NCBI RefSeq assembly: GCF_008329965.1
Contig: NZ_CP036150.1
Location: 3,328,439-3,392,438 of the forward strand
Source: Oceanispirochaeta crateris
Lineage (GTDB): Bacteria > Spirochaetota > Spirochaetia > DSM-2461
Direction: 5' to 3'
Length of the DNA stretch: 64,000 bases
This document shows positions 3,042 through 40,957 of this stretch, one piece after another. How positions within the stretch are numbered: position 1 is the first letter of the stretch; each line of letters starts with the position of its first letter. Under the pieces are notes generated by a model. The model saw only the letters and a list, made by a program, of their open reading frames with translations, searched no databases and was not told the DNA's origin. The translations under genes were made by a program, and so were the position numbers.

Positions 3042-3064
3042 GGTTCTTCTCCAGGTTCAATTCT

Positions 3065-5779: not shown

Positions 5780-5801
5780 GAATACCTCCCAGTATTGTTT
5801 C

Positions 5802-5807
5802 ATTATA
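5802..5807 (-). promoter_or_regulatory. -10 box for the CHASE2 cyclase gene
   Basis: A perfect TATAAT on the minus strand, 22 bases before ATG 5779, followed by a strong SD. No good -35 hexamer is visible at 16-18 bases. The rest of the 283-base divergent gap to the M16 gene shows no other gene. Confidence 0.45.
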
Positions 5808-6062
5808 GACGTCTCATCATGGATTTCCATAAAAAAAAGATCAGATTTGAATGAGAGAATCATTTTTTTTGTCAGGAAATTGAAGATCCAAACATAGGAG
5901 ATCCTATTGTGGGGGCTCCTCTTGCTCTGCATCTTACTGTAGAAATTAAGGAAAAGACTCTGCTGTCCTCATTTTGAAACAGCTCTTCTGGACGGCCTTT
6001 TTCTCTGGTACCTCGGTCCTGTATCTATCCCCTTATGAGGGAATCGGATATATTATGCTGTT

Positions 6063-8927
6063 ATGTTTTTGAAAGCAGATAAGCGGAACAGTTCCGATCA
6101 GATAAATTCACCAGAAGACCCCTACAATCTTACAACTCATACCCTATCCAACGGACTGACCCTCTATCTTTCCTGCAGAAATCATAAACCGAGGATTGAA
6201 ACAAGGATTGTCATTAAAGCCGGATCTGCACAGGATCCGGAAGAGTCCACAGGGGCAGCGCATATTCTGGAACATTTGATGTTCAAGGGGTCAGAGTCGA
6301 TTGGGACTTTGAGGAGATCAGAAGAAAAAGTCCTCCTGGAAAAGATAAGCAGGGCTTTCGAATCTTTGAGAGAGGTTGAGGATGAGGAGGAACGGAAGAA
6401 GCTCTTTCAAAAAATTGATGCCCTCAACCAGAAGGCCTCCGTCTTGAGTCTACCCGGAGAGTATGACCGCATCCTTTCCCATCTGGGGGCAAGAGGTGTG
6501 AATGCCTATACCAGTGTGAATGAAACAGTTTATAAATGCGATATTCCCTCAATTGAACTGGAGCGCTGGATCAGTCTGGAATCTGAACGATTTTCCAGAC
6601 CTGTAATCCGCTCTTTCTTAACAGAGATCGAGGCCATCTTTGAGGAATTCAATCAGGATCTGGATGATGATTTTTCCAGGGCCAGGGATTTGCTCCTGGA
6701 AAAACTCTTTCCGGGTCATGAATACGGCAGCCACACCATTTTAGGTAAAAAAGAACATATCAAGGCTCCCTCCATTGAGAAAATCGAAGAATTCCGGAAT
6801 ACCTGGTATCGTCCCGAACATATGGCACTCTGCCTGGCCGGAGATTTTGATCGTGAAGAAGCTCTGGAGCTGATAGACAGAACCTGGGGAAAATGGAATC
6901 CGCCAAGTCTGGAGAAGCCACTTCCTGGTCCCAGAAATGCAAAACCCCTGAGGCGATCCGAGAAGCATGGCATCAAGGGAGCCGATTCTGAGTTTACTAT
7001 GACCGGTTTCCGTTTTGGTGGTGTCCGCTCAGAAGATTATGATCCTCTTTGTATGCTGGATCTCATTCTCAGCAACAGTCAGGCAGGGCTCATAGACCTG
7101 AATCTGGTGCAGAAGCAGAAGATTCTAGACGGCGGCAGCAGCCTCAGCACGGCAGGCGATTATAGCTGGTTTGTGCTTTATGGTACTCCCGGTCCGGGGC
7201 AGTCTCTCGGGTCTGTCCACAGGCTCTTGCTCAAACAGCTGGATCTGATCAGAAAGGGAGAGTTTGATGACCGGCTCCTCAAGGGCGTTATCAAATTTCT
7301 AGAGATAGAACAAACTCAGGATCTTGAATCGAACCAAATTGTAGATGCCTTTGCCGACTGTTTCAGTGAGGGAATCAGTTGGTCTGAGTATTTGAACCGT
7401 CTAGATAGGCTGAAAAACCTGACGGCCGAAGATTTGATTGCCTTTGTCAAGGATAAGTTCAATGAGTCCTATGTTCGTATAGACAAGAAAGAAGGTGAAG
7501 ACCCGGCTCAGGAGCTTGTGAATAAGCCCGAGATTACGGCCTTGAACATTGATTATAACAAAGAATCAGCATTCTTTGCTGATCTCAGATCCAGAAATCC
7601 GGGTTATCGTAACCCTTCTTTTCCGGATTATAATAGAGACTTGGAACATTGTGACTTGAATCGTGCCGTTAAAATCAGCCGCTGCGCCAATAAGAAAAAT
7701 GATCTTTTTGAGGTTACCTTTATTTTTCCTGAAGGAAAGAGTTCTTCCCCCTGGCTGCCCATTGCGGGTGATTATTTTCCATATCTGGGAACTGACTCTC
7801 TCAGCCCTGACGCCTTGCAGAAAGAAGCTTTTTTATTAGGGATAGACCTTTCTATTCAGGTGGATCTTGAACGGACCGTCTTTTCTTTGTATGGCAAAGA
7901 TGAGGATCTCGAAAAAGCCCTGTCTTTTACTCAGTCTTTGATCCGGAGAGGGAGGGGAGACCGAAGGAGCTATAGAAAATACATTCAGGGGCTTATCAAA
8001 AGGCGGAAGGATGCCAAGCTCAGTAAAAAGGTCCTCCTCTTTGGGGGGCTTTATTCCTGGGGTCTTTATGGTCCGGATTCTCCTTTTAGGGATATCATCG
8101 CTGAAAAAGACCTGAAGTCCATGGATGCGGATCATCTGACCCATGAGATCAGGCGTTTATTTGATCTCCCCCATCAACTTTTTTACTATGGAACCAGATC
8201 CTTGGATGAAGTCCGGACCCTCTTGATTGATCTGCATCCTGGAACAGGAAATACGCTTACCCTGCGACCTAAAAAAAAGTATGTTGAAAAAGAAGGGGAC
8301 GGGAATGTCTTCTTTACAAATCATGACATGGTGCAGGCCGAAGTTTTCAGATTGGCGGCTCAAAGCCATTTCAGATCCAGTCATCTGGCATCTATCACTC
8401 TGTTCAATGAGTTTTTCGGAGCTGGTCTGAACTCTCTATTTTTTCAGGAAATTCGGGAAGCGAGGGGCCTCGCCTATACGGCCTACTCCAGCATTTCGGT
8501 TCCTGAATCCCCTCAAAACAGGCATATCCTTTCAAGTTATCTAGGAACTCAGGCAGATAAACTTCCCGAAGCTTTGAGTGAGATGGAGCGATTGTTTCAA
8601 AGAGTCCCAGCCAGGGATCGTCTTTTTGAGGAAGCCAGGACGGCTCTTTTGAAGAGCCAGTCTTCCGAAAGGATCGCCGATGCGGATATATTCTGGAGTT
8701 GGTGGGAAGCTCAGGAACTCGGATTGAACCAGGACTACAGGCAGAAGATCTTTCATGATCTGGAAAGCTACAGCTATACCATGATGGAAGAGTATTTCAG
8801 GAATTCTGTGATTCCCGTTAAAAACAACATCCTTATTCTGGGAAACCGGGATGAACTCGATCTGAAATCTTTGGAGAAACGCGGTCCTCTTTATGAATTG
8901 GACCCGGATGAATTGTTCAATTATTAA
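6063..8927 (+). CDS. M16-family zinc metallopeptidase, cytoplasmic
   Basis: 954-residue inverzincin-type peptidase. The N-terminal catalytic domain carries HILEH at 67-71 (two zinc His and the catalytic Glu of HxxEH) and an acidic EEFN segment about 120 residues later that should give the third zinc ligand. Further M16 domains follow, including one with FFGAGLNSLFFQEIREARGL near the C-terminus, typical of the inactive M16 half. There is no signal peptide, so it probably degrades peptides in the cytoplasm, like protease III relatives. No SD precedes ATG 6063; a TATATT at 6049-6054 sits 8 bases before the ATG, so the message may be leaderless. Confidence 0.85.
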   Translation: MFLKADKRNSSDQINSPEDPYNLTTHTLSNGLTLYLSCRNHKPRIETRIVIKAGSAQDPEESTGAAHILEHLMFKGSESIGTLRRSEEKVLLEKISRAFESLREVEDEEERKKLFQKIDALNQKASVLSLPGEYDRILSHLGARGVNAYTSVNETVYKCDIPSIELERWISLESERFSRPVIRSFLTEIEAIFEEFNQDLDDDFSRARDLLLEKLFPGHEYGSHTILGKKEHIKAPSIEKIEEFRNTWYRPEHMALCLAGDFDREEALELIDRTWGKWNPPSLEKPLPGPRNAKPLRRSEKHGIKGADSEFTMTGFRFGGVRSEDYDPLCMLDLILSNSQAGLIDLNLVQKQKILDGGSSLSTAGDYSWFVLYGTPGPGQSLGSVHRLLLKQLDLIRKGEFDDRLLKGVIKFLEIEQTQDLESNQIVDAFADCFSEGISWSEYLNRLDRLKNLTAEDLIAFVKDKFNESYVRIDKKEGEDPAQELVNKPEITALNIDYNKESAFFADLRSRNPGYRNPSFPDYNRDLEHCDLNRAVKISRCANKKNDLFEVTFIFPEGKSSSPWLPIAGDYFPYLGTDSLSPDALQKEAFLLGIDLSIQVDLERTVFSLYGKDEDLEKALSFTQSLIRRGRGDRRSYRKYIQGLIKRRKDAKLSKKVLLFGGLYSWGLYGPDSPFRDIIAEKDLKSMDADHLTHEIRRLFDLPHQLFYYGTRSLDEVRTLLIDLHPGTGNTLTLRPKKKYVEKEGDGNVFFTNHDMVQAEVFRLAAQSHFRSSHLASITLFNEFFGAGLNSLFFQEIREARGLAYTAYSSISVPESPQNRHILSSYLGTQADKLPEALSEMERLFQRVPARDRLFEEARTALLKSQSSERIADADIFWSWWEAQELGLNQDYRQKIFHDLESYSYTMMEEYFRNSVIPVKNNILILGNRDELDLKSLEKRGPLYELDPDELFNY

Positions 8928-9023
8928 AAAACAAAGCAGAAACAGTATTCTTTTCCCTCTCCCTCCTTGTCTTTGTATCAAGTCATGCTAAAATGAGCGA
9001 TATCTATTTTTTGAGGAAGAGTC

Positions 9024-9521
9024 ATGACAAGAAAAATCTTATGTGTGTTCTTTATTTTATCTTTTTTTACAGCCCCTTTAATGGCTAATTCAGGAATCCT
9101 TGGTCTGTGGAAGACCGTTGATGATACGACTGGGGAAGTCAAATCTATTGTTAAAGTGTATGAGTATGAAGGAAAAGTTTTTGGAAGAATCTTGGTGACC
9201 TATGAAGAAGGGGTCCTGAAAGATACGTACATCAATCCCATTCATAGGGCAGAAAATGTCAAGGGAACTCCTTTTTTCTCAGGTCTGGATTTTATCTGGA
9301 ATATGGAGAAAAAAGGAGATAAATGGAAGAAGGGAAAGATCATGGATCCCCAGCAGGGGAAAGTCTATTCATCAGAGATCTGGCTTGAAAACGGAAACCT
9401 GATTGTCCGTGGTAAGATTGGTCCCATCGGCCGGAACCAGACTTGGCTCCCGGCCACAGCAAGGGATCTTCCTTCGGGTGTTTCGGACCCAAATAGCATC
9501 GTCCCGTCTATTCCCCAATAA
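9024..9521 (+). CDS. DUF2147-domain secreted protein
   Basis: 165 residues with a signal peptide ending near APLMANS and then the DUF2147 pattern: GLWKTVDDTTGEVKSIVKVY, an IL-V-Y segment and a C-terminal Trp-rich strand. Members are small periplasmic beta-rich proteins of unknown function. SD GAGGAAGAG precedes the ATG. It lies 96 bases after the cytoplasmic M16 gene and converges with the exported M16 gene. Confidence 0.75.
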   Translation: MTRKILCVFFILSFFTAPLMANSGILGLWKTVDDTTGEVKSIVKVYEYEGKVFGRILVTYEEGVLKDTYINPIHRAENVKGTPFFSGLDFIWNMEKKGDKWKKGKIMDPQQGKVYSSEIWLENGNLIVRGKIGPIGRNQTWLPATARDLPSGVSDPNSIVPSIPQ

Positions 9522-9523
9522 TA

Positions 9524-9549
9524 GCACTCCCCCTTTTTTTGGGGGGCTT
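9524..9549. terminator. C5-T7-G6 hairpin between convergent genes
   Basis: CCCCC (9529-9533), seven T and GGGGGG (9541-9546) form a GC stem with a T loop in the 26-base gap between two converging stops. It lacks a clear downstream T-run on either strand, so its efficiency is uncertain. Confidence 0.4.
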
Positions 9550-12349
9550 ATTCCGCAGGATAAAGGATGACTTCCAGGTTGTCTTCGTCGGAGAAGTACC
9601 GGGAAATCCTATCTTGAAAAACCTCTTTTGTATAATTTCCTTCCAGTTCATTTACAGCAACGATGTCACTGTCGTCCAGGTCCAGAAAGTAGTTTCTTTC
9701 CAGACGGGATAGCCAGAAGTTGTTCTTTCTCTGTTCCTCTTCCAGTAAAACAGTTCGCGCTTTTATCACATCCTGAACAAACCGGTCTTCAATTTTTCCA
9801 TCTTTGATATTGTTCAGGGTTTGTTTGACCAGGTTCACTAAATCTTCTGTTCTTTCCGGATCGCATGAGAAGGAGATCATAAAATAATAGTCTTCATAGG
9901 GAACCTTCGCAGGGGTGACAGATACGGATGGGCTGTAGGTGCCTGCTGCATTTTCCCTGATTTCTTCTGTGATCATCATCTGCAGTGAATCAGAGACAGC
10001 CTGTATCAGTTGAGTTTCCAGGTTGCTCCATTCCCATTCTCCAGGATAAATCATTGTGACATAGCTCACCGGGTCCTGCCCGCTGCTTAGACTCTCTCTT
10101 ATTTGTCCCTTGGGGTATCGCAGATTTCTGTCTTGCCAAGTCTCAGGGCTTCCTGCATTTGGAAGGGAAGCCAGATACGTTTCGATCAACGGAATGAGCT
10201 GTTCTTCATCAAAGCTGCCTGTGATGAAGAATGTAAAATTTTCAGCCTGGGAAAAACGATCCCTGTAGAAATCAAAAGCCATAGCAGGGTCAATTTCAGG
10301 GAGCATTTCTTCCTTAAGCGGCTGGCTTCTGGGGTGATCCTGATATAGCAAAGAGATCAGCAGGTCTGAATACTGGGTCATGGGATTTGAGTCTCTATTT
10401 TTTAGATTGTTCCCCAGACGTGTCCTATAGGAATCCCACATGGGTTTATCCAGTCGGGGAGCGCTGAAGTAGAGATAGTTTAGCTGAAAGAGTGTTTCTA
10501 AGTCCTTCCTTGTACTGCTGCCTCTTACGCCGCTGCTCATCTCGCTGATCACTGGCTGCAGGCTGGCAGTGGAACCGGCCAGGACTCTATCAAGGTCCTG
10601 CTTGGAAAAGGCTCCCACTCCTCCCAATTTAACAATTTGAGAAGCGAAGGAGGCACTCAAATAATTTTCATCCTCTGCCAGTGAAATCCCCCCGGGAGAC
10701 ATGGCGGAAAAGAGGATTTCATTTTCCTTAAAGTCTGTTTTCTTAAGGACAACCCGGACTCCATTACTGAGTGTCAACTCTTCAGCTTTTGCCTCCGTTA
10801 GCTCTCTCCTGCCTATTATGCTTCCCGCTTCGGGAACATGTTCCATAAGAGAGGATTCGGTCACTTTGTCTTCCAGAACTTCGGTTTCCGTCTGATTTAC
10901 TTTGAATTTGATTCCCGAAAGAACGATTGGGTCAATGGCTTCAAGATCGTCCCGCTGGGGTGACATTGTATAGATGACCCTGTTTTCTTCACTCAGCCAT
11001 TGATGACTTTTCTCTCTGATATCCTCGAGTTTTATGGATTCTATGCTCTCGTTGAAGACGGACCAGAGATACTCAATTCCCGGTGCTGGAGATTGATCCA
11101 GGAAATGCCGTACATATTCTTCTGCTAATTCTGCCGATTCTCTGTTATTCCTGTTGTTGTAGGCCGTAAACATTCTAGAGTAGAGCTCTTTGCGGGCTCT
11201 GATGAGTTCTGATTCTGTGAATCCATGATCTTTAATTCTTTTTTCTTCAGTCAAGAGTGTCTTGAACCCGCCATATAAGTCGTCTTCAGCTGTCACAACG
11301 GTCATGGTGTGAAATGTTTTCTCTCTGGTGAGAGAGCTGAAGTCGACATAAGCATAGCTAAAGGGCGGCTCTGGACTGTTTTGCAGGTCTTCCAGCCTGT
11401 TATTGAACATCGTCAGATAGAGATCCTCCATGAGTCCATCCCTGATGTCTGCCTTATTTCTTATTTCTGTTTTTGGGAATTTATTAAAAACGATGGCCGC
11501 GGTCCATGTGGCTTCAGGATCGCTTTGATTTGTAAAAACGGTTTCCCTGTGATCGGGAACCGGAGGTTCCACCCGTTCCCGGGGACGTTGTGGGTTTGAA
11601 TATTTTTCAAACCGTTCTTTAATCTCATTTTCTATGTCTTCCGGGTTAAAGTCACCCACGGCAACGATGGCCATCAGGTCGGGGCGGTACCAATCATTAT
11701 AAAAGCGGCGGATTGACTCTGCAGTACTGGTTTTAATCGATTCCTCTGTTCCGATGGGAAGCCGTTCTCCATACTGAGATTTATACATAATTTGAGGGTA
11801 GGCTGCATCCATCATTCTGCGTGAAGCTCCCAGACCGCGTCGCCACTCTTCTAATATGATTCCTCTTTCTTCTTCTATGTCCTTGGTTTCAAGGCTCATA
11901 TGGAAAGCCCATTGTTCCAAAATATCCAATCCTGTGCTGAGGTTTTCAGGCTGATCTAGGGGAATCATAAGCTTGTATACAGTTTCATCGAAGGAGGTAT
12001 GAGCATTGATATCCGGCCCGAATTGCATGCCTATACCCTGTAGATAGTGGACAAGATCATTTTTCTCATAGGAAGCCGTACCATTGAAGGCCATGTGCTC
12101 TAAAAAATGCGCCATACCTAGCTGATCCGGATCTTCCATCAGGGAGCCTGCATTGACAGCCAGCCTTAGGACGGCCCTGTTTTCGGGAGTCTCGTTATGC
12201 TTGATGTAGTATTGCATACCATTGTCAAGGGTCCCATGCAGGACTGTGGGTTCCAGGGGAATCGCCTCTCCTTGTCCTTCTCCCCAGAGCAGAGGATGCA
12301 GAAGTACAAACAATATGAGGAGATATGTATATTTACGCATGTGATTCAT
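9548..12349 (-). CDS. M16-family zinc metallopeptidase, exported
   Basis: 933 residues. An N-terminal signal sequence (MNHMRKYTYLLILFVLL, cleavage near GEGQG) sends it to the periplasm or outer membrane. The catalytic HFLEH is at 81-85, followed by HTSFDETVYKLMIP and then EERGIILEEWRR, which supplies the third zinc ligand. Two M16 halves are present, as in PqqL/insulinase-like proteins. Start ATG 12349 has SD AGGAAGG four bases upstream; an internal ATG three codons later is less well placed. It is a different branch from the cytoplasmic M16 at 6063, as judged by length, signal peptide and motif context. Confidence 0.85.
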   Translation of the reverse strand: MNHMRKYTYLLILFVLLHPLLWGEGQGEAIPLEPTVLHGTLDNGMQYYIKHNETPENRAVLRLAVNAGSLMEDPDQLGMAHFLEHMAFNGTASYEKNDLVHYLQGIGMQFGPDINAHTSFDETVYKLMIPLDQPENLSTGLDILEQWAFHMSLETKDIEEERGIILEEWRRGLGASRRMMDAAYPQIMYKSQYGERLPIGTEESIKTSTAESIRRFYNDWYRPDLMAIVAVGDFNPEDIENEIKERFEKYSNPQRPRERVEPPVPDHRETVFTNQSDPEATWTAAIVFNKFPKTEIRNKADIRDGLMEDLYLTMFNNRLEDLQNSPEPPFSYAYVDFSSLTREKTFHTMTVVTAEDDLYGGFKTLLTEEKRIKDHGFTESELIRARKELYSRMFTAYNNRNNRESAELAEEYVRHFLDQSPAPGIEYLWSVFNESIESIKLEDIREKSHQWLSEENRVIYTMSPQRDDLEAIDPIVLSGIKFKVNQTETEVLEDKVTESSLMEHVPEAGSIIGRRELTEAKAEELTLSNGVRVVLKKTDFKENEILFSAMSPGGISLAEDENYLSASFASQIVKLGGVGAFSKQDLDRVLAGSTASLQPVISEMSSGVRGSSTRKDLETLFQLNYLYFSAPRLDKPMWDSYRTRLGNNLKNRDSNPMTQYSDLLISLLYQDHPRSQPLKEEMLPEIDPAMAFDFYRDRFSQAENFTFFITGSFDEEQLIPLIETYLASLPNAGSPETWQDRNLRYPKGQIRESLSSGQDPVSYVTMIYPGEWEWSNLETQLIQAVSDSLQMMITEEIRENAAGTYSPSVSVTPAKVPYEDYYFMISFSCDPERTEDLVNLVKQTLNNIKDGKIEDRFVQDVIKARTVLLEEEQRKNNFWLSRLERNYFLDLDDSDIVAVNELEGNYTKEVFQDRISRYFSDEDNLEVILYPAE

Positions 12350-12506
12350 AGTGCCTTCCTATTTCGGTCCTGTTAAATAATAGATGATTTTGTAATAAAG
12401 GGATGGTATAATCACAAGTATCCCTCTTTTTTCATTGTAACTGATTCTATGTAAAAAAAAAAAGAAAAATGTATGACAAAAATCTAAAAACAGAAGGTAT
12501 TGATTT

Positions 12507-14501
12507 ATGACTATTAAAGCAAAGCTTCTATCTCTCGTTACAGTTTTCCTTGTATTATTTTGTTCCATTGTTGGTCTCTACTTTATGATTATGGCTCCGA
12601 TCGAAAAGATTGAAACAGAAAAGAACGTTCTGGATGCCCTGAAAAACAGTATTTTGAACGAACAAATCCTTATGAATAGGCTCTTGGGGCAGTCTCCTTT
12701 TGTTCGCATGTCAGAAGACTTTTATGAAAGTGTTGAACAGACAAATTCTCTCTTCGCTGAACTGCAGTCAGTCGAGTATCTAAGAGCGACCAGTGGCAAT
12801 ATTGCGGAAGCCCTGGATATCATCAGCAGGTTGAACGAGATGAAGCTGGAACGATTGACACAGTTTAAGAATGCCGATCAGAAGTTCAGAGAATCCGTTG
12901 AAGAGATTTATGTATTCATCGACTCATTTTCTTTTGTAAAAATCTACCAGACAAAACGGTTCTCCGAAAACCTGAATTCAACCAACGCGAACCAGTTTAG
13001 TTTTGCTTTTACAAACTATCTCTCCCAGCATAGTATTTATGAAAATGTTCTTGAAAGCTCCGTGACTGTTATTTCAGAGCAGTTTGAGTTTGTAGAAAGA
13101 GAAATAAGGGTTGTAGAAAAAAGGAGTCTCACCTACTCTCTCATAGGCTTGATCATCATCCTCTCTCTCGTCTTTACCGGCTCTATCATTTTTACAAATC
13201 AGATTGTCAATAATATTAAGAGTATTGAGGGCAGCATTTCCCGTCTCAAGGATGGGGACCTGAGATCCGTAGGAACGGTGAATTCAAAGGACGATTTGGC
13301 CAGGCTTAACTCGAATTTATCCCTCTTTCAGAATTCTATGAGAGGCATCATCGACAGGATAAAATGTGTCTCCGATGAGAATCTCATCGTTCGGGACAAG
13401 CTGATCAATCAGGTGGAAGATACAACTACGACCAGTCGTAACATCAAGATCAGCACTGATGAGATGAAACAGGATATTCAGGAGCTGGATGAAACCGCAA
13501 GAATTTCCTATGAATCGGTAGAGTTTATTTCCGGAAAAATAGAAACATTGAATCAGAGCATATTAGAACAAACAGCCATGATTGAAGAATCCTCAGCTGC
13601 AGTCAATGAGATGATGGCTTCCATCGCCAATGTAGAACAGGTGACGATTAAAAAACTGGGAAGCCTGGAAGAGATGTCCAATTCAATGGATGCCGGGAAC
13701 AGTCAGTTGAAAGACACATCTCAATCCATCCAGAAAATAAACAGCAGTATCGACGCCATCAGGAATATGATTTCGGTGATTGAAGATATCTCTTCGCAAA
13801 CGAACCTTCTTTCCATGAACGCAGCCATAGAGGCCGCCCATGCCGGAGAATACGGAAAAGGTTTCGCTGTTGTTTCTGATGAAATCAGAAAGCTGGCTGA
13901 GGCGTCCTCACAGAACTCTCGTGAAATCGGAACCTCTCTGACCGAGATCATTCAAAATATCAAAGAGGCTACCGATTCAAGTGATGTTACGATGTCGACC
14001 TTTTCAAAGTCTGTTTCGGAAGTGGAGGATTTGGTTTCTTCCCTGAAAGAAATAAGCCAGAGCATGGTTGAACTTAAATCCGGGGGAGATCAGATTCAGC
14101 AGGCCATGAGTTCACTCCAAACCATGACCGTTGAGGTACGTCAGGATTCTTCAAGTATGAACGAGCAGTCCCAGAACATGATTCAAGCTGTTGAAAATGT
14201 CCAGGCTATTTCTGGAAGTGTCAATTCAAGCATCAACCAGGTTTCTGAGGGTGTGGGTAATATTACCCTGGCCATTGATAAAATAAAGGATATTACGGGG
14301 TCTATCGGGTCAATTGCCGGTAGGATCGGTGCTGAACTGGATTTCTTTCAGACCGATGATCAGTGTGAAGATGCCGTTTTAGAGGATCTTGACTCATCGG
14401 AGATCCCTTCTTCAGAAGACAGCACTAAGGATACGGCTGAGCTTTTTGTGGATGCCTCACAAGCGGAAGATCCTGATGACTCGGATGTTGATAGAGGATG
14501 A
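12507..14501 (+). CDS. Methyl-accepting chemotaxis protein (transmembrane)
   Basis: 664-residue chemoreceptor. TM1 is near residues 8-30, a helical periplasmic sensor of about 175 residues follows, then TM2 near 208-230, a HAMP segment ([10 protein letters not shown]) and a long cytoplasmic coiled coil. The signalling tip [21 protein letters not shown] is conserved, so it should couple to CheA/CheW. The acidic tail lacks an obvious CheR-docking pentapeptide. The ATG follows a weak SD (GAAGG). The ligand cannot be told from sequence. Confidence 0.92.
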
Positions 14502-27522: not shown

Positions 27523-28212
27523 TTATTTTTGTGAATGCAATGCCCGCACAAGTCCGGAAAAGGACGGGGTTTTGAGGTCTAATTCGAAGCTTCTTTGTCC
27601 CACATTGGCGGGGTAGTGGGCATCGGAGCCGGTTGTTTCAAAATAGCGGCCGGCGTTGAAGCTACAGGGTTTGTGCATGACTTCCACGGCATCGTAATCA
27701 TTTTCCGGTAGGAATCCTAATTGACTTTTTATGCTGAATGCCGCCCTGTCAATGTGTGCCGGGATAAAAAGGCCCTCTCTTTGATGAACCATTTCTATGA
27801 GTTCTTCCATGGAGAAATCAACGGCTCCCCCCGCCAGGTGTTTTTCAAGTTCACCCAGGATATTCTCATCTTCATCTACGATGACCTGGTCTCCCATCCT
27901 ATCCGGGTTGTTGGGAATGGTCATTAGATTTTCATAGATGATGTAGCCGAAGCGGACGGCTGTTTTCAAGTCACCGAACAGACAAAGGAGGTGCGCTTCT
28001 TCCCGACCCGTTACTTCCAGGCCGTAGACGGGGATGATTCCTTTGCGGCGGCAGCATACATCAAAGGCCGGAAGGTTGTCTCCCGCATTGTGATCTGTCA
28101 GGGCCAGCATCCCTATTCCTTTGGCTGACGCTTCATTTACAAGCCTGGATGGAGACATTTCGAGGCTGCCACAGGGGCTGAGGCAGGAATGGTTATGGAG
28201 GTCAATGAGCAT
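27523..28212 (-). CDS. PHP-domain metal-dependent phosphoesterase
   Basis: 229 residues. The PHP signature is intact: HNHS (His6, His8) near the N-terminus, LTDHNA, a GLEV Glu, PAHIDR and a late SDAHYP, giving the multi-metal site of PHP hydrolases. The natural substrate is unknown; small phosphorylated nucleotides or sugar phosphates are plausible. It starts at ATG 28212, whose last base region overlaps the stop of the DRTGG gene, so the two are translationally coupled. In other anaerobes PHP genes lie in hydrogenase gene neighbourhoods. Confidence 0.85.
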   Translation of the reverse strand: MLIDLHNHSCLSPCGSLEMSPSRLVNEASAKGIGMLALTDHNAGDNLPAFDVCCRRKGIIPVYGLEVTGREEAHLLCLFGDLKTAVRFGYIIYENLMTIPNNPDRMGDQVIVDEDENILGELEKHLAGGAVDFSMEELIEMVHQREGLFIPAHIDRAAFSIKSQLGFLPENDYDAVEVMHKPCSFNAGRYFETTGSDAHYPANVGQRSFELDLKTPSFSGLVRALHSQK

Positions 28213-28538
28213 CAGAGAAGTTTGTGTACCTTCCAGGAGCTTGTGAATTGATTCTCCTTTGTCCTAAATACCGAAATCCCTTCTTCGCTGGCGGCTTTGA
28301 GCATATCATCGGGAGCCGGGCGATTATTACAGATTAACAGGGCATGAATCCCGGCGAGGGAGGCAACGGCGACTGTATTCTTATGAGCTTGAATGGTGAT
28401 CAGCACCGAGTCTTCCGGGGCATTTCCCATGACATCACTCAGCAGGTCCGAGGTGTATCCGTCCAGGAGCTCTTCGTCGTTTCCCTCTGCCACAAGACAG
28501 TCGTAGCCTAATTTCTCGGATAGATCTTTAACCTTCAT
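28212..28538 (-). CDS. DRTGG-domain protein
   Basis: 108 residues matching the free-standing DRTGG type (LSEKLGYDCLVAEGNDEELLDGYTSDLLSDVMG, then VAVASLAGIHALLICN). The domain also occurs in phosphotransacetylase and CBS proteins and probably binds a small ligand. It overlaps the CBS-ATPase gene by 11 bases upstream and the PHP gene downstream, so the three are one translational unit. Confidence 0.8.
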   Translation of the reverse strand: MKVKDLSEKLGYDCLVAEGNDEELLDGYTSDLLSDVMGNAPEDSVLITIQAHKNTVAVASLAGIHALLICNNRPAPDDMLKAASEEGISVFRTKENQFTSSWKVHKLL

Positions 28539-29466
28539 TTTTTGCTCCTTCTTCTTTGCTGTGAGTGTAGATCATGGATTTCACAGTTGTCCCTTCTCCC
28601 GGGACCGATGCTATATTGAATTCATCGGATACTCTTTTGACATTGGCAAGGCCCATCCCTGCTCCAAAACCAAGAGACCGTATCCAGTCATTTGCGGTGG
28701 AAAAGCCTTCGGTGAGGGCCTCTTCCAGGTTTTCGATACCCGGACCTCTATCGGAGGCCTCTATGGTTACTGAATCGGGGAGGATATTGAAGGTCATGCG
28801 CCCCCCCAGAGAGTGGACCACCTGGTTGATCTCCAATTCATAAGAGGCTACGGCTACCCGCCTTATTATCTTCCTGTCAATATTTCTTTTTTTCAAAGCT
28901 TTCTTTATCTCAGTGGAAGCCTTGCCTGCATTTTCAAAGTCATAACGGTGGCAGATAAAGCTCATTTCTTTTGAACCCCTCGCTTCCGGTTCGTTCAGAG
29001 GGAGCATTTTTTCCAGGCGAGTCATTTCTCTGTTCATTTCCAGAAGCAGGTGATTGACGATGTCCCGGCTTGTTATAATTCCCACAAGTTCTTTGTTCAT
29101 GTTTAATACAGGAAAACGCCCATAATGGTATTTATCCATATAATTGATGGCGAAGGAGAGGGGCATGTCTTCTTCCAGAACAATTACATTTCTGGTCATG
29201 TGTTTGTTTGCCGGTTCCTCAATAAGCCCTCTGTCCATGGTGGACAGGACATCTTCCATGCTCACAATTCCACATAGTCTGGAACCATCTGTGATGGGAA
29301 CCCCTGTGATTCTCTCTTCTTTCATGATCTTCTGAATCTCCCTCATGGAGCAGTCCTTGCAGGAGGTTCTGACATTTCTTGTCATAACATCTTTGATTTT
29401 GAGTCTGAAAATCATTTCCAGGATAACTGAGGGTGAATTGTCTGTGTTCAGTGGAATGCCTTGCAT
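28528..29466 (-). CDS. CBS-pair protein fused to an anti-sigma-type HATPase
   Basis: 312 residues: two CBS domains (about 20-135; MTRNVRTSC, GIVSMEDVLS, GIITSRDIVNHLL) that should bind an adenine nucleotide, then a GHKL ATPase domain (about 165-305) with ELEINQVVHS, DRGPGI and GFGAGMGLANVKR boxes, closest to RsbW-like serine kinases. It could read energy charge and act by phosphorylation or partner binding. No SD precedes ATG 29466, but TTGATT-16-TATAAT ends eight bases before it. An internal Met at codon 17 is an alternative start with no better SD. Confidence 0.8.
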   Translation of the reverse strand: MQGIPLNTDNSPSVILEMIFRLKIKDVMTRNVRTSCKDCSMREIQKIMKEERITGVPITDGSRLCGIVSMEDVLSTMDRGLIEEPANKHMTRNVIVLEEDMPLSFAINYMDKYHYGRFPVLNMNKELVGIITSRDIVNHLLLEMNREMTRLEKMLPLNEPEARGSKEMSFICHRYDFENAGKASTEIKKALKKRNIDRKIIRRVAVASYELEINQVVHSLGGRMTFNILPDSVTIEASDRGPGIENLEEALTEGFSTANDWIRSLGFGAGMGLANVKRVSDEFNIASVPGEGTTVKSMIYTHSKEEGAKNEG

Positions 29467-29474
29467 ATGTGGGC

Positions 29475-29502
29475 ATTATAAGGGATATTTTTTTAAAATC
29501 AA
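29475..29502 (-). promoter_or_regulatory. Promoter of the CBS-DRTGG-PHP operon
   Basis: TTGATT (29497-29502), 16-base spacer, perfect TATAAT (29475-29480), then eight bases to the ATG. Leaderless or nearly leaderless initiation is predicted. Confidence 0.65.
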
Positions 29503-29559
29503 AGAGCCGGAAGAGTTCTGCTCCCGGGATCATTGAAAAATCAGCCAAGGAGTTAAGAG

Positions 29560-30072
29560 TTGTCAATTCTTGAAGGTAAAGTTTCAGACCGCGATAAAGA
29601 GATTTTAATGGAAGCCACCCTGGAGGGAAGGAAAGCGAAAGAGAAGGGAAATCACCCCTTTGGAGCTGTGTTAGCAGACAAGGAGGGACATATTCTTCTC
29701 CGTGCCGGTAATACGGTCACAACCGAACACAATGACTGCGGGCATGCGGAAACAAATCTGATGATTGCGGCATCCAAAACCTACTCTCGGGAGTTTTTGA
29801 AGGACTGTACCCTCTATACTTCCGTCGAACCCTGTGCCATGTGTTCCGGCGCCATGTATTGGACCAATGTGGGACGTCTGGTTTTTGCCCTTTCTGAACA
29901 TCAGCTTCTGGAATTGACAGGAGATGATCCCGAGAATCAGACTTTTGATCTCCCTTGTAGAGAGGTCTTGTCCAGGGGACAAAAAGATATTGAAGTCATT
30001 GGTCCTGTAGAGAGTGATGAGCTTGTGAAAGAGATTGTCTCTGACCATAAAGGATTCTGGAATCCGAACTAA
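29560..30072 (+). CDS. Nucleoside/guanine deaminase (CDA fold)
   Basis: 170-residue zinc deaminase of the cytidine deaminase-like superfamily. The site is HAE at 62-64 and PCAMC (Cys92, Cys95). The N-terminal NHPFGAVLAD and the spacing match guanine deaminase / tRNA-adenosine deaminase relatives; the bulkier C-terminus (LSEHQLLELTGDDPENQTF) favours a free nucleobase or nucleoside substrate over TadA. It starts at TTG 29560 with SD AAGGAG seven bases upstream. It lies just before the nucleoside importer, consistent with purine salvage. Confidence 0.85.
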   Translation: MSILEGKVSDRDKEILMEATLEGRKAKEKGNHPFGAVLADKEGHILLRAGNTVTTEHNDCGHAETNLMIAASKTYSREFLKDCTLYTSVEPCAMCSGAMYWTNVGRLVFALSEHQLLELTGDDPENQTFDLPCREVLSRGQKDIEVIGPVESDELVKEIVSDHKGFWNPN

Positions 30073-35052: not shown

Positions 35053-35688
35053 TCAGCTTATTCCTATGGTCTGACTCTTCTCACTTATTTGAAAAAACAA
35101 ATTTTCAATTTCAAGACAGATGTTTACATTCTGAATCCTCAAATATTCTGAGTTTTTAAGTTCAACAGGTGTAAAATTCAATATTCCCTGAATTCCGCAT
35201 TCACTTAAGAGGTCCCTGGTGTGGGAGGCGGCTCCGGCTGGAACGCAGAGTACGGCCACTCTGATTTTATGTTGAGTGACATAGTTTATCAAAACTTCCA
35301 TAGGGTAGATGGGAATTCCATTGACCTCGGCATCCCGGGGATTGATATCAAAACCGGCGGTGATGTTAATCCCTTCCTTATAGAAGGCCTCATGTTTTAT
35401 CAGGGCCTTGCCAAGGTTTCCACAGCCGATAACCACAACATCCTGCAGTTCGCTGGTACCTAGAATGCTGTTGAGAGATTCGATCATATCGTTGATGTTA
35501 TAACCGCCCTTTCGATTTCCAAGGCTGAGATTCATTCTTGATAGATCTTTCCTCACAAGGGAGGGGGTTATGCCTATGGCATCTCCCAGATTACTTGAAA
35601 AAACTTTTTCCAGACCAAGAGATTTGAGCTGGATAAGTATTCTTTTGTATTTAATAAGGCGTGTTGTGTAGTCATTATTGCTCTTCAT
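35053..35688 (-). CDS. rex: Redox-sensing transcriptional repressor Rex
   Basis: 211 residues. An N-terminal winged helix with TPSLVRKDLSRM is followed by a Rossmann domain with GCGNLG at 88-93 that senses the NADH/NAD+ ratio; NADH binding releases Rex from DNA. It faces away from the hydrogenase operon across a shared 157-base control region containing a perfect Rex palindrome. ATG 35688 has no SD; AT-rich -10-like sequence lies directly before it. Autorepression is inferred because the operator begins 11 bases upstream of its start codon. Confidence 0.93.
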   Translation of the reverse strand: MKSNNDYTTRLIKYKRILIQLKSLGLEKVFSSNLGDAIGITPSLVRKDLSRMNLSLGNRKGGYNINDMIESLNSILGTSELQDVVVIGCGNLGKALIKHEAFYKEGINITAGFDINPRDAEVNGIPIYPMEVLINYVTQHKIRVAVLCVPAGAASHTRDLLSECGIQGILNFTPVELKNSEYLRIQNVNICLEIENLFFQISEKSQTIGIS

Positions 35689-35845: not shown

Positions 35846-36322
35846 ATGCCTGTTGAAGCAGAAGAGCTGAAAATGACCGAGAGTCTTATCAGTTTTATCA
35901 ATGAATGGAAAGAAAAACCCGGAAACCTGATTATGGTTCTCCACAGGGTTCAGGAAGAGTACGGCTACATACCCCGAAACATAGCGTTTGAACTGGGGAA
36001 AATGTTGGATGTACCTTTAGCAAAGATTTATGGTGTTGTCACATTTTACCACTATTTCAAACTGGAAAAACCCGGCAAGCATACAGTTTCCGTCTGCATG
36101 GGGACAGCGTGCTATTTGAAGGGTGGACAGGATCTGGTGAGTGAACTTGAACAGCTTCTTGGTGTCGGATGCGGCGGTACAACCGAAGATAAGCAGTTTT
36201 CATTACAAGCCGTTCGTTGTATCGGATGTTGTGGTCTTGCACCAGTTCTGACAATTGGTCAGGAAGTTTTCGGTAAGCTGACAACAGAGATGCTTCCAGA
36301 GGTTATTTCAAAATTCAAGTAA
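35846..36322 (+). CDS. hydC: NuoE-like [2Fe-2S] subunit of the NADH-dependent hydrogenase
   Basis: 158-residue thioredoxin-fold ferredoxin subunit (24-kDa type). Cluster ligands Cys84, Cys89, Cys125 and Cys129 fit CX4C...CX3C; VVTFYHYFKLEKPGKHTVSVCMGTAC is split here but is the family core. It passes electrons between the NuoF-like flavoprotein and HydA in HydABC/HymABC complexes. First gene of the operon. Confidence 0.92.
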   Translation: MPVEAEELKMTESLISFINEWKEKPGNLIMVLHRVQEEYGYIPRNIAFELGKMLDVPLAKIYGVVTFYHYFKLEKPGKHTVSVCMGTACYLKGGQDLVSELEQLLGVGCGGTTEDKQFSLQAVRCIGCCGLAPVLTIGQEVFGKLTTEMLPEVISKFK

Positions 36323-36339
36323 GATCGGAAGACAGCTGA

Positions 36340-36900
36340 ATGCACTATTCACTGAGTGATATGATTCTGGATCTTATTCAGAATTCCATAGAGGCTGATG
36401 CCCAAAGGATTCACCTTGATCTTATCCGGAAAGCAGATGAACTGATTGTTCGACTGACAGACGATGGCTGCGGGATGACAAAAGGTCAGCTGGAAAGATC
36501 AAAGGACCCGTTTCATAGCGACGGGATCAAGCATAAGCACCGCAAGGTCGGGCTTGGAATCCCCTTTCTGATACAGACTATAGAACAGGCTGACGGCAGC
36601 TTTGAGATACAATCTGAAAAGGATAAGGGTACCACTTTGAATATACGGTTCAATCTTGGGAATATGGACACTCCTCCAGAGGGGGACTGGCCTGGACTGT
36701 TTTTACAGTCATTTTGCTTCGAAGGGAATTATGAACTGATCATTAATAGAACCATTATCAGAGAACAGGGCGAAGAGGCCGGGTATACACTGCAGAGGAG
36801 TGAACTGCAAGATATCCTGGGCAACTTCAATGAATCAGGTGCCATGATTTTATTACGGGATTATCTGAGATCACAAGAAGAAGAACTGCTGGATGCATAA
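36340..36900 (+). CDS. GHKL ATP-binding protein of the hydrogenase operon
   Basis: 186 residues containing only a HATPase domain: DLIQNSIEADAQR (N box), DDGCGM (G1), KVGLGIPFL (G2), with no HisKA or sensor domain. Such orphan ATPases recur inside hydrogenase operons of anaerobes, where their role is unknown to me; signalling or assembly are possibilities. It starts 17 bases after the hydC stop and is followed by an 82-base gap with two hairpins. Confidence 0.82.
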   Translation: MHYSLSDMILDLIQNSIEADAQRIHLDLIRKADELIVRLTDDGCGMTKGQLERSKDPFHSDGIKHKHRKVGLGIPFLIQTIEQADGSFEIQSEKDKGTTLNIRFNLGNMDTPPEGDWPGLFLQSFCFEGNYELIINRTIIREQGEEAGYTLQRSELQDILGNFNESGAMILLRDYLRSQEEELLDA

Positions 36901-36907
36901 GGTAGAG

Positions 36908-36957
36908 CAAGGCTGTTTGGCCTTGTCAGTAAGAGCGCCAAGACTGCAAATCAGTCT
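36908..36957 (+). promoter_or_regulatory. Two tandem hairpins in the hydrogenase operon
   Basis: CAAGGC-N6-GCCTTG (36908-36925) and AGACTG-N5-CAGTCT (36941-36957), both perfect 6-bp stems, lie in an otherwise empty 82-base gap. Neither has a T-run. They could mark an RNA processing or stability site. Confidence 0.5.
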
Positions 36958-36982
36958 CGGTAGATCAATTGAGGATTAAACA

Positions 36983-37372
36983 ATGGCAAAAATGACCCTT
37001 GAAGAACTACGGAAACTCCGGAGCTCTCAGAAATCAGAAATGGAACGAAGAGACGTAGACGGAAAAGAAACACATATTATTGTTGGAATGGGAACCTGTG
37101 GAATCGCAGCAGGAGCCAAGATGGCACTGGATAGTTTTTTGGACGCAATAAAGGCCAATGACCTGAAAGATGTTGTTGTCAAACAGACCGGTTGCATGGG
37201 CCTTTGCTACAGTGAACCAACGGTAGAAGTCAAGGTTCCCGGAATGCCCGATGTCATCTATGGCAATGTGGATGCCGCTGTGGCCAAAGAGATTGTCGAA
37301 AAGCATATTATTCATAAGAAAATGGTCGAAAACCATATTCAGGATAAGCCTGCCGGCGACATCATCAAATAG
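36983..37372 (+). CDS. Thioredoxin-like [2Fe-2S] ferredoxin of the hydrogenase operon
   Basis: 129 residues of the TRX-ferredoxin type. Cys71 and Cys75 give CX3C (GCMGLC), and Cys39 lies in GMGTCGIAAGA. The fourth expected Cys of the first pair is absent, as in several hydrogenase-linked relatives, so cluster ligation here needs another residue or differs. Probably an electron-transfer partner of the NuoF-like protein encoded 15 bases downstream. Confidence 0.82.
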   Translation: MAKMTLEELRKLRSSQKSEMERRDVDGKETHIIVGMGTCGIAAGAKMALDSFLDAIKANDLKDVVVKQTGCMGLCYSEPTVEVKVPGMPDVIYGNVDAAVAKEIVEKHIIHKKMVENHIQDKPAGDIIK

Positions 37373-37387
37373 AAAAGAGAGGAAAAC

Positions 37388-39181
37388 ATGGCAGTAAAAA
37401 ATTATATACTTGTCTGTGGTGGTACCGCCTGTGAATCTGCAAAGGGAGACGATATTTACAAAGCCCTCCTGAAAGAAGCGGAAGCTCATGGTGTCGCTGA
37501 CGACGTTCAAATTGTTAAGACAGGATGTTTTGGTTTTTGTGAAAAAGGCCCCATCGTCAAGGTCCTTCCGGAGCAGGCTTTTTATGTTGAAGTTGTTCCC
37601 GAAGATGCTAAAGAAATTATCTCGGAGACCATCGTCAAGGGACGTATTGTAGAGAGGATTCAATATCAGCCTGAAAAGGGAGCCAAAGGAGAAGCCTTTG
37701 ACATTGAAAATATTGAATTCTATCAGAAGCAGTATAGAATCGTTTTGAGAAATTGTGGCTTGATCAATCCCGAAAATATTGATGAATATATTGCCCGTGA
37801 CGGGTATTCTGCATTGGAAAAATGCCTCTTTGAAATGAAGCCTGATGACATCATTGAAGAGCTCAAAAAATCAGGACTTCGGGGACGCGGTGGTGCCGGA
37901 TTTCCCACCTGGATGAAGTGGAATTTTACCAAACAGGTTGATGGCGGGCAAAAGTATGTTGTCTGTAATGCCGACGAAGGTGATCCCGGGGCTTATATGG
38001 ACCGCTCCACACTGGAAGGGGATCCCCACTCTGTTCTTGAAGCCATGATCATTGCCGGAATCTGCGTTGGTGCCGACTATGGTGCCATTTATATCCGTGC
38101 CGAATATCCTCTGGCCATCGAGCGGCTGGAAACGGCCATGAAACAGGCCCGTGAGTATGGACTCTTAGGTAATGATATTCTAGGTTCGGGTTTCAATTTT
38201 GACATCGAACTCAGACTGGGTGCCGGTGCTTTTGTATGTGGTGAAGAAACGGCTCTACTTGCCTCCATAGAAGGCAAGAGAGGTATGCCCATTCCTAAGC
38301 CTCCCTTTCCTGCAGTCAAGGGTCTTTTTAGAAAACCAACGGTCATCAATAATGTTGAAACCTTTGCAAATATTCCCATTATCATCACAAAGGGGGGTGA
38401 CTGGTTTGCACAGATCGGTACAGAGAAGTCAAAAGGTACAAAAGTCTTTGCCCTCACAGGAAAAATCAAAAATTCAGGTCTTGTTGAAGTCCCCATGGGG
38501 ACGACCCTGAGAGAAATCGTCTTTGATATCGGCGGTGGTATCCGTGGTGGTAAAAAATTCAAAGCCGTTCAGACTGGTGGACCATCGGGAGGCGTGATCA
38601 CAGAAGAATTTCTGGATACACCCATCGACTTTGACAACCTGGTCTCCATCGGTTCCATGATGGGTTCTGGTGGTATGATTGTCATGGATGAAGACGACTG
38701 TATCGTGGATGTTACAAAGTTTTACCTGGAGTTCTGTGTTGAGGAATCCTGCGGTAAATGCGCTCCCTGTAGAATCGGCACGAAGAAACTCTATGAATAC
38801 CTGGATAGATTCACCAAGGGTAAGGGCCAAATTGAAGATATTCAGAAGATGAAAGACATTGGTAATGCCATGAAAAAGGCATCCCTTTGCGGCTTAGGCC
38901 AAACCGCCGCCAATCCGGTCCTTTCGACTCTGAGATACTTTCCTGAAGAGTACAGACAGCATATTGAAGATGGTAAATGTATAGCCGGAAAGTGTAAGGA
39001 TCTGGTTCATTATGAAATCGTTACTGAAAAATGTATCGGTTGTACCGTCTGTGCACGAAAGTGTCCTGTGAACTGTATTGAAGGTGAACGCAAGAAACCT
39101 CATGTTATTGATCAGACCAAGTGTATCAAGTGCGGTGCCTGTTATGAAGGCTGTAAGTTCGATGCAATCATCGTATCTTAA
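37388..39181 (+). CDS. hydB: NuoF-like flavoprotein subunit of the NADH-dependent hydrogenase
   Basis: 597 residues. An N-terminal thioredoxin-like [2Fe-2S] domain (Cys10, Cys15, Cys47, Cys51), a NuoF core that binds FMN and NAD (GRGGAGFPTWMKW, CNADEGDPGAYMDR, EETALLASIEG), a [4Fe-4S] site (ESCGKCAPCRIG) and a C-terminal 2[4Fe-4S] ferredoxin (CIGCTVCARKC, CIKCGACYEGC). This is the HydB/HymB arrangement of electron-bifurcating hydrogenases, where NADH and ferredoxin electrons meet. Length is standard. Confidence 0.94.
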   Translation: MAVKNYILVCGGTACESAKGDDIYKALLKEAEAHGVADDVQIVKTGCFGFCEKGPIVKVLPEQAFYVEVVPEDAKEIISETIVKGRIVERIQYQPEKGAKGEAFDIENIEFYQKQYRIVLRNCGLINPENIDEYIARDGYSALEKCLFEMKPDDIIEELKKSGLRGRGGAGFPTWMKWNFTKQVDGGQKYVVCNADEGDPGAYMDRSTLEGDPHSVLEAMIIAGICVGADYGAIYIRAEYPLAIERLETAMKQAREYGLLGNDILGSGFNFDIELRLGAGAFVCGEETALLASIEGKRGMPIPKPPFPAVKGLFRKPTVINNVETFANIPIIITKGGDWFAQIGTEKSKGTKVFALTGKIKNSGLVEVPMGTTLREIVFDIGGGIRGGKKFKAVQTGGPSGGVITEEFLDTPIDFDNLVSIGSMMGSGGMIVMDEDDCIVDVTKFYLEFCVEESCGKCAPCRIGTKKLYEYLDRFTKGKGQIEDIQKMKDIGNAMKKASLCGLGQTAANPVLSTLRYFPEEYRQHIEDGKCIAGKCKDLVHYEIVTEKCIGCTVCARKCPVNCIEGERKKPHVIDQTKCIKCGACYEGCKFDAIIVS

Positions 39182-39205
39182 TCGATGCTCGAAGGAGAAA
39201 AATCA

Positions 39206-40957
39206 GTGGAAACTGTAGAAATTAAAATTAATGGACAACCCTATGAGGTTGAAAGCAATACTTCCATTCTAAAGGCCGCTAAGAAGGCCGGCATTAAGAT
39301 CCCCACACTCTGTACCCACACAGACCTGGAACCCTGGGCTGCCTGCGGTATCTGTGTTGTTAAGGTAGAAGGCTCCCCTAAGATGGTAAGAGCCTGCGCT
39401 ACCACGGTTGTTCCCGGTCAGAATTATATTACCCATGATCCCGAACTCCAGAAGGTGAGGAGGACCGTCATTGAGATGACTCTGTCCAACCATCCTCAGG
39501 AATGCCTGTCCTGTGCCAAAAATCAAATTTGTGAACTTCAAAAGCTCGCAGCCGATTTCGGCATTAGGGAGATCCCATTCCCCATGGATGTGAAACGCCT
39601 TCCCAAAGATACATCGACTGCTTCATTGGTGTTTGATCCCTCCAAGTGTATTCAGTGCGGTCGATGTGCCCAGGTTTGCCAGCAGCTGCAGGATGTTTGG
39701 GCTCTGGAATTCCTTCATCGCGGACATCAGACAAGAATTGCACCCGCTGCGGGAGTTCTTCTGAATGAGAGTCCTTGTATCAAATGCGGTCAGTGTTCTG
39801 CCCACTGTCCGGTCGGGGCTATTTATGAAAAGTCGCAGACTCAGGAATTTTGCGATGCCGTTGAGGCTGATAATGTCCATGTCGCAGTCCAGATTGCTCC
39901 AGCCGTCCGTGTGGCCCTGGGTGAAGTTTTCGGCATGGAGCCCGGGTCCATTACAACAGGGAAAATCTATACCGCCCTTAGAATGCTGGGAAGCGATGCC
40001 GTGTTCGATACAAATTTTGCGGCTGACCTGACCATCATGGAAGAGGGGACTGAGCTGGTCAAAAGAATCACCACCGGTTCCGGAGTTCTGCCACAAATTA
40101 CTTCCTGCTGTCCTTCCTGGACAGATTATATGGAAAAATACTACCCCGATATGATTCCTCATTTCTCTACGGCCAAGTCGCCCATGATGATGCAGGGAGC
40201 TGTCACAAAAACCTACTACGCCGAAAAGGCCGGGATTGATAAAGAGAGCATTTACTCCGTGGCCATTATGCCCTGTACGGCTAAAAAATATGAGATTGGC
40301 CGGGATGATAATATGGCAGCCTCCGGCGTAGCCGATGTGGACCTTGTTCTTACAACGAGAGAGCTGGGTCGCATGATTAAAGCCGCGGGTATAGACTTTG
40401 CCAACCTTAAGGATTCTGAAGCAGACAGTCCTATCGGAGCCTACTCAGGAGCCGGAACGATCTTTGGTGTCACCGGTGGTGTTATGGAAGCGGCGGTGAG
40501 AACAGCCTACAAACTGGTGACTGATGCCGAACTGGGTGATATTAATGTGAATGCCGTTAGAGGTATGGAGGGTGTTAGAAAGGGCTCCGTAGATTTTAAC
40601 GGGACAGAAATCAAAGTGGCTGTTGCCCATGGTATGGCCAATGTCAAATCCATTATGGATGAAATACGGGAAGCCAATGAGAAAGGTCTAGAGCCTCCCT
40701 ATCATTTTATCGAAGTTATGGCCTGCCGAGGCGGATGTATCGCCGGGGGTGGGCAGCCCTATGGAACAGAAGATAATATTCGTGAAAAGAGAATAGCCGG
40801 TATTTACAGCGATGATGAAAAATCAGTGGTCAGGAGATCTCATGAAAACCCTGAAATCATCCAGATTTACAAGGACTATCTGGATGAGCCTCTAAGTGAA
40901 AAGGCGCACCATCTGCTCCATACAAGCTATACTGAAAGAAAGCTGTATCAGAAGTAA
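39206..40957 (+). CDS. hydA: [FeFe]-hydrogenase catalytic subunit, group A
   Basis: 583 residues. N-terminal plant-type [2Fe-2S] domain, His-ligated [4Fe-4S] site (HPQECLSCAKNQIC), two [4Fe-4S] clusters (CIQCGRCAQVC, CIKCGQCSAHCP), then the H-cluster motifs TSCCPSW, MPCTAKK and EVMACRGGCIAGGGQP. It evolves or oxidises H2 using electrons from HydB/HydC. ATG 39185 is in frame, but the SD AAGGAG lies after it; GTG 39206 sits eight bases past that SD and gives a protein beginning with METVEIKINGQPYEV, so GTG is preferred. HydEFG maturases are not in the window. Confidence 0.95.
   Translation: METVEIKINGQPYEVESNTSILKAAKKAGIKIPTLCTHTDLEPWAACGICVVKVEGSPKMVRACATTVVPGQNYITHDPELQKVRRTVIEMTLSNHPQECLSCAKNQICELQKLAADFGIREIPFPMDVKRLPKDTSTASLVFDPSKCIQCGRCAQVCQQLQDVWALEFLHRGHQTRIAPAAGVLLNESPCIKCGQCSAHCPVGAIYEKSQTQEFCDAVEADNVHVAVQIAPAVRVALGEVFGMEPGSITTGKIYTALRMLGSDAVFDTNFAADLTIMEEGTELVKRITTGSGVLPQITSCCPSWTDYMEKYYPDMIPHFSTAKSPMMMQGAVTKTYYAEKAGIDKESIYSVAIMPCTAKKYEIGRDDNMAASGVADVDLVLTTRELGRMIKAAGIDFANLKDSEADSPIGAYSGAGTIFGVTGGVMEAAVRTAYKLVTDAELGDINVNAVRGMEGVRKGSVDFNGTEIKVAVAHGMANVKSIMDEIREANEKGLEPPYHFIEVMACRGGCIAGGGQPYGTEDNIREKRIAGIYSDDEKSVVRRSHENPEIIQIYKDYLDEPLSEKAHHLLHTSYTERKLYQK

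Follow-up and report, generated by a model that had tools for sequence, protein, structure and literature searches.

A CBS-ATPase, DRTGG and PHP gene set of Oceanispirochaeta crateris as part of a candidate control module for NADH/ferredoxin bifurcating enzymes

Three overlapping genes on the reverse strand of a 64,000-nucleotide stretch of the Oceanispirochaeta crateris genome (NZ_CP036150.1, positions 3,328,439 to 3,392,438; the window) encoded a CBS-pair protein with an RsbW-like ATPase domain (CBSH), a DRTGG-domain protein (DRT2) and a PHP-family hydrolase (PHP). They belong to a little-described module found in many bacterial phyla together with the NADH/ferredoxin bifurcating core which hydrogenases and formate dehydrogenases share. 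The three genes could represent the CBS-bearing form of a control module accessory to BfuABC (HydABC-type) bifurcating enzymes, working by the mechanism proposed below, and we give this reading a probability of about one half. The likely target is the shared NuoE/NuoF core and not the hydrogenase end, since the module accompanies the core of both hydrogenases and formate dehydrogenases.

CBSH was counted in 179 Spirochaetota genomes, with thresholds of E <= 1e-190 to the HydB of the window for NuoF, E <= 1e-100 for HydA, and full length for CBSH. It was present in 28/70 genomes having both NuoF and HydA, in 6/23 having NuoF without HydA, in 0/19 having HydA without NuoF and in 2/67 having neither; both of the last two carriers possessed Hox [NiFe] operons. 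Uncorrected for relatedness, the odds ratio was 24 for NuoF with CBSH (Fisher p=2.5e-9) and 4.7 for HydA with CBSH (p=1.7e-4). In Chloroflexota, where the NuoF threshold was 1e-170 to the L139 protein, CBSH was found in 10/201 genomes, and HydB-type NuoF in 10/10 carriers vs 55/201 genomes overall; NuoF was located within a few kb of CBSH in nine carriers, and HydA was detected in 1/10. All of twenty further locus genomes, picked mainly for stand-alone modules, contained NuoF (20/20), and 13 contained HydA. At the thresholds used, 8/36 CBSH carriers of Spirochaetota and 9/10 of Chloroflexota were without HydA. Thus the association of the module with the core is strong: the module requires the bifurcating core and not a particular head, while the core often occurs without the module. 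A partnership with hydrogenase only, in which [FeFe] HydA is required, was rejected by these strata, and formate dehydrogenase and [NiFe] heads exist as well. The earlier note on this DNA, made from the letters alone, had considered hydrogenase as a possible target and proposed co-occurrence with HydABC as the check. The association with the HydB core proved very strong, but the partner was the NuoE/NuoF core, and a spread of the set without [FeFe] hydrogenase, which that note would have taken as a refutation, was partly observed.

Gene neighbourhoods were taken from a profile scan of genome contigs with the CBSH alignment, of which the best 80 loci were listed; the counts may be biased by gaps in metagenome-assembled genomes, related genomes, arbitrary thresholds and the best-80 list. 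The full order in relatives was DRT1-CBSH-DRT2-PHP, DRT1 being a second DRTGG paralogue. This unit lay in one operon with NuoE-HATPe-Fdx-NuoF in L068, where HATPe is a second GHKL ATPase of the HydE type, and was divergent from it in L061 and L063. The set was adjacent to or co-directional with HydABC in L060-L063, L068, L103, L107, L111, L117, L120 and L122. Outside Spirochaetota, NuoE or NuoF was in the flank of 41/52 CBSH loci (23/28 with long flanks, 22 on the same strand), and DRT1, DRT2 and PHP accompanied 49, 43 and 40 of these 52 loci, respectively. For Spirochaetota, NuoE/NuoF was within reach in only 5/14 long-flank loci and DRT1 was nearby in only 7/27, so the module there usually stands apart from the enzyme operon, and DRT1 has usually dropped out of the operon. 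The set had previously been described as split from the hydrogenase operon. It does lie 6.4 kb from the HydABC operon, but a split peculiar to this genome was rejected, because separation is common in Spirochaetia.

The heads of the linked operons were [FeFe] HydA, molybdopterin formate dehydrogenase-like proteins, [NiFe] HoxYH-like pairs, and long BfuA proteins with pyridine-nucleotide domains. The view that the set belongs with hydrogenase operons therefore holds for relatives with HydABC nearby and for the Clostridia locus L179, and has to be widened to formate dehydrogenase and [NiFe] operons. One bifurcating formate dehydrogenase operon with module genes (L037 of G042, 1079-9875) carried a HATPase without CBS domains, with no HydS nearby. 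Another locus (L039 of G068, 8179-14324) had the order NuoE-DRT1-CBSH-DRT2-PHP-HATPe-Fdx-NuoF-BfuA (202 aa), with no evident adjoining catalytic head. N-terminally extended NuoE proteins of 297-558 aa were observed in L142, L145, L146, L148, L150, L158, L159, L163 and L170, and the extension was FAD/NAD-binding-like in the three scanned (L142, L145 and L148). In addition, a homologous HAD-like hydrolase gene (DDTLL motif) was immediately 5' of CBSH in L096, L098-L102, L117, L118 and L126, which belong to Treponema-like and some other spirochaetes.

The sensor part of the module can be exchanged. In L179, DRT1-HATPase-HydS-DRT2-PHP was divergent from NuoE-HATPe-Fdx-NuoF-HydA, and a HATPase plus HydS stands in for the CBS-HATPase. 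In G169 a DRT1-HATPase-HydS unit existed alongside a CBSH-PHP unit (L064, L065). Members of the set were also scattered in the O. crateris genome (one contig, 4.01 Mb): DRT1 was solitary at 734.7 kb (0.73 Mb), and a 143-aa HATPase (HATPs) at 3.909 Mb, sharing 49% identity with the ATPase domain of CBSH, was directly followed at its 3' side by the sensory hydrogenase HydS (434 aa), which carries Fe_hyd_lg_C and, at its C terminus, an FeS domain, but lacks PAS. The set of three genes first recognized was thus right as far as it went, and is enlarged by the second DRTGG gene and the HATPase-HydS pair. Gene fusions connected the same partners, including HATPase-DRTGG in five loci (L074, L076, L077, L078 and L080), PHP-HATPe in two (L148 and L150) and HATPase-HydS in L055. 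The PHP-HATPe fusions agree with grouping the HATPase at 36340 with the set; it is not an orphan, as was supposed, since it lies inside the hydC-hydA operon. The two-gene unit of DRT1 plus a HATPase-DRTGG fusion (L074 9561-10367, and L076, L077, L078 and L080) was found in spirochaete families mostly without HydB-type NuoF, and the neighbours of these fusions (TetR, MgtE, TatD, ThiF) revealed no common theme.

The domain calls of the earlier note for the three proteins were upheld by Pfam and by the DRTGG fold. CBSH matched CBS twice (E=1.9e-25), HATPase_c (2.1e-7) and HATPase_c_2 (2.8e-6), and its ATPase domain matched the anti-sigma F factor model spIIAB with E=5.6e-10, below the model cut-off. 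The N-box E210..N214 was kept in 80/80 relatives and the G1 and G2 boxes in 77-79/80, so that CBSH has the N-box Glu/Asn and glycine boxes of the GHKL serine-kinase domain of RsbW/SpoIIAB systems. A ribose-binding motif G-h-x-S/T-x-x-D was present in each CBS domain, with S69/D72 in 76/75 of 80 and T132/D135 in 69/72 of 80 relatives. DRT2 reached 25.3 bits with Pfam DRTGG, a borderline value at a cut-off of 25.2; the call was secured by its AlphaFold2 model (pLDDT 98.2), which was closest to the DRTGG protein 2ioj (TM 0.86), followed by the DRTGG domain of CBS-pyrophosphatase (3l2b/3l31, TM 0.75). By sequence and predicted fold DRT2 belongs to the DRTGG family. Its invariant residues in 39 sequences were D31, S34, T48, H52, N54 and A83, and Ser34 was kept in both DRTGG families (DRT1 and DRT2); a phosphosite at Ser34 would be a guess from conservation, and the residue may be structural. 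The 229-aa protein matched PHP (3.5e-9) and PHP_C (3.7e-5), and H6, H8, D40, H41, E66, H153, D197 and H199, the full metal-ligand set, were invariant in 40 sequences. Its AlphaFold2 model (pLDDT 96.5) was nearest to the EndoQ PHP domain and to RNase AM/TM0559-type phosphoesterases; the His/Asp/Glu set and the fold identify a PHP phosphoesterase. By sequence, no full CBS-HATPase and no stand-alone DRTGG relative was found among solved structures, and no viral contig carrying the DRTGG gene was found. The CBS-bearing 'Dehydrogenase' 9sr9 was set aside, being absent from the listed HydB relatives.

These features suggest how the module may work. It would consist in full of DRT1, CBSH, DRT2, PHP and HATPe. 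The CBS pair would bind adenylates (AMP/ADP/ATP or Ap4A) and thereby gate the attached RsbW/SpoIIAB-like ATPase, which would act on the two small DRTGG proteins, probably as a serine kinase. The PHP hydrolase, as a putative reversing enzyme, and the HydE-type ATPase would provide an opposing or second arm, and the output would tune the NuoE/NuoF core post-translationally with any head. In other lineages, and in the second copy of this genome, HydS as an H2 or redox sensor would replace the CBS pair, so that one output would serve two inputs.

Known systems resemble parts of this arrangement. RsbW/SpoIIAB kinases share with CBSH a GHKL domain of the HATPase_c_2/spIIAB type with N, G1 and G2 boxes, but their STAS, sigma factor and PP2C partners are absent from the module, where DRTGG and PHP take their places. 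No STAS antagonist was found among the module proteins with Pfam, a genome-wide search for STAS not having been made; no PP2C/SpoIIE phosphatase was found in the module, and SpoIIE domains exist elsewhere in the genome, one of them next to the HydS-like gene of the second hydrogenase locus. A CBS pair plus DRTGG forms the adenylate-controlled insert of CBS-pyrophosphatase (3l2b/3l31), which is regulated by AMP/ADP/ATP/Ap4A (PMC10742508); there the insert regulates a DHH pyrophosphatase in one chain, whereas here the CBS pair is on a GHKL ATPase and DRTGG is separate. The HATPs-HydS pair at 3.91 Mb has the same layout as the group D / M2e sensory [FeFe] hydrogenase TamHydS, for which the output was left open in a study which calls the signalling route of sensory hydrogenases without PAS domains an open question (PMC8163306); in the present case the ATPase family next to HydS has connections to DRTGG, PHP and a CBS-bearing paralogue. 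The NuoE/NuoF core which the module follows, common to enzymes with exchangeable heads, was defined with the BfuABC family (PMC9304861); the main text of that paper does not discuss an accessory module and makes no mention of kinases, ATPases, CBS or PHP. HydE of Acetobacterium woodii, like HATPe, is a histidine kinase-like ATPase encoded inside a bifurcating hydrogenase operon (PMC3315566); the passages found in that paper discuss the single gene, without mention of CBS-HATPase, DRTGG or PHP partners. No literature linking DRTGG to hydrogenase was found in open-access sources, and a subscription journal may already have described the module.

Several observations weigh against a control module dedicated to the bifurcating core. 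HydB-type NuoF was without CBSH in 59/93 Spirochaetota and 45/55 Chloroflexota genomes, so the module is not obligatory. Two genomes (G102 and G139) carried CBSH with Hox-type NuoF only. DRT1 together with a HATPase-DRTGG fusion was found in seven spirochaete genomes, six of them without HydB-type NuoF, and therefore the DRTGG-HATPase unit can have another use. The analogy to RsbW is partial, with no STAS, PP2C or sigma factor in the module, and the module of O. crateris has no linkage to a particular enzyme, so that its target there can only be inferred.

There are other explanations. The module might be an assembly or maturation system, with the GHKL ATPases acting as Hsp90-like chaperones and PHP/DRTGG aiding FMN or Fe-S loading of the core. 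It would then be expected to track the core and not the head, as it does; the HydE-type ATPase, in which the N-box is conserved, is similar to MutL and histidine kinase ATPases without the His box, and A. woodii HydE, which is outside the active enzyme, 'may be involved in assembly or signalling' (PMC3315566). However, most genomes with HydB-type NuoF lack CBSH, and their cores hence do not need it to mature; a sensory hydrogenase in the place of CBS is a sign of signal input, and the separate leaderless promoter permits expression apart from the enzyme, so we consider a maturation role rather unlikely. Transcriptional partner switching, in which CBSH/HATPase would be the anti-sigma factor and DRTGG the anti-anti-sigma factor controlling hydrogenase expression, could draw on the matches of the HATPase domain to spIIAB and HATPase_c_2 and on the assumption that HydS-type hydrogenases control hydrogenase expression (PMC10055695). 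It appears very unlikely, because the conserved module genes include no sigma factor, STAS or DNA-binding protein and Rex was the only conserved regulator seen nearby. Incidental linkage, with passenger genes of a mobile redox operon functionally untied to the enzyme, would suit the separation of module and enzyme in this genome and many spirochaetes; it is hardly credible, since the association persists in unlinked genomes, two separately sampled phyla, several gene orders and fusions.

As regards the locus itself, the three reading frames overlap, as had been noticed before, by 11 bp and then 1 bp. The predicted -10 box stops 8 nt short of the CBSH ATG, and therefore the transcript is probably leaderless; a -10-like box was 5-9 nt 5' of the start at about eight other spirochaete loci with CBSH first, at a background of 1.5% for all ATGs. 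The earlier statement that the set has its own leaderless promoter and no Rex palindrome was borne out: a Rex site ahead of the module in the window was rejected, as 29467-29560 upstream of CBSH contained no Rex-like match. A perfect Rex-like palindrome (TTGTGACAGAAGTCACAA) separates rex from hydC instead, and rex immediately precedes the module genes in L061, L063, L107, L111, L116, L120 and L122. The operon in the window has the order nuoE/hydC - HATPase - 2Fe2S - hydB - hydA, and 35846-40957 encodes the NuoE-like, NuoF-like and BfuA subunits with an H-cluster head which define BfuABC/HydABC; the closest PDB entry to its HydB/NuoF was the HydB of 7q4v (E=4e-249). A second, different NuoE-NuoF-HydA locus with its own neighbours was located at 2.75 Mb. 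There (2.748-2.759 Mb, L180 6529-16984) the NuoE-NuoF-HydA (673 aa) operon was followed by two open reading frames (287 and 502 aa), and genes for a SpoIIE phosphatase and a HydS-like protein of 576 aa were convergent with it, so each of the two hydrogenases seems to be regulated by a set of its own.

Table 1. Features of the three-gene set and the HydABC operon, in positions of the window
Feature	Position	Strand	Basis
CBS-pair + RsbW-like HATPase protein (CBSH), 312 aa	28528..29466	-	Pfam, conserved residues
DRTGG-domain protein (DRT2), 108 aa	28212..28538	-	Pfam, AlphaFold2 model, invariant residues
PHP-family metal-dependent hydrolase, 229 aa	27523..28212	-	Pfam PHP/PHP_C, invariant residues, AlphaFold2 model
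Predicted leaderless promoter of module, TTGATT-16-TATAAT	29475..29502	-	Position kept in relatives
Rex redox repressor	35053..35688	-	Pfam Put_DNA-bind_N + CoA_binding
Rex-like perfect palindrome TTGTGACagaaGTCACAA	35699..35716	.	Sequence match
HydC/NuoE-like subunit (BfuC)	35846..36322	+	Pfam 2Fe-2S_thioredx E=5e-46
Second GHKL ATPase, A. woodii HydE type (HATPe)	36340..36900	+	Pfam HATPase_c; PHP partner by fusions
2Fe-2S thioredoxin-like ferredoxin subunit	36983..37372	+	NCBIfam fdxn_Clost E=2e-9, below cut-off; operon position conserved
HydB/NuoF-like flavoprotein (BfuB), co-occurring core	37388..39181	+	Pfam Complex1_51K and others
HydA, [FeFe] hydrogenase (BfuA + H-cluster head)	39185..40957	+	NF040763 794 bits vs cut-off 765

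Bifurcating enzymes set the NADH/ferredoxin/H2 balance in many anaerobes, and to our knowledge little is known of their post-translational control. A module which stays with the core whether its head is [FeFe], [NiFe] or formate dehydrogenase provides concrete candidates for such control, and gives sensory hydrogenases that have no PAS domain an output which can be tested. It is possible, with the odds somewhat against it, that this is a new signalling system, in which a CBS- or HydS-driven GHKL kinase would modify DRTGG instead of STAS and tune the core to energy charge and H2. If so, the GHKL-DRTGG system would supply the output that is still missing for group D sensory hydrogenases.
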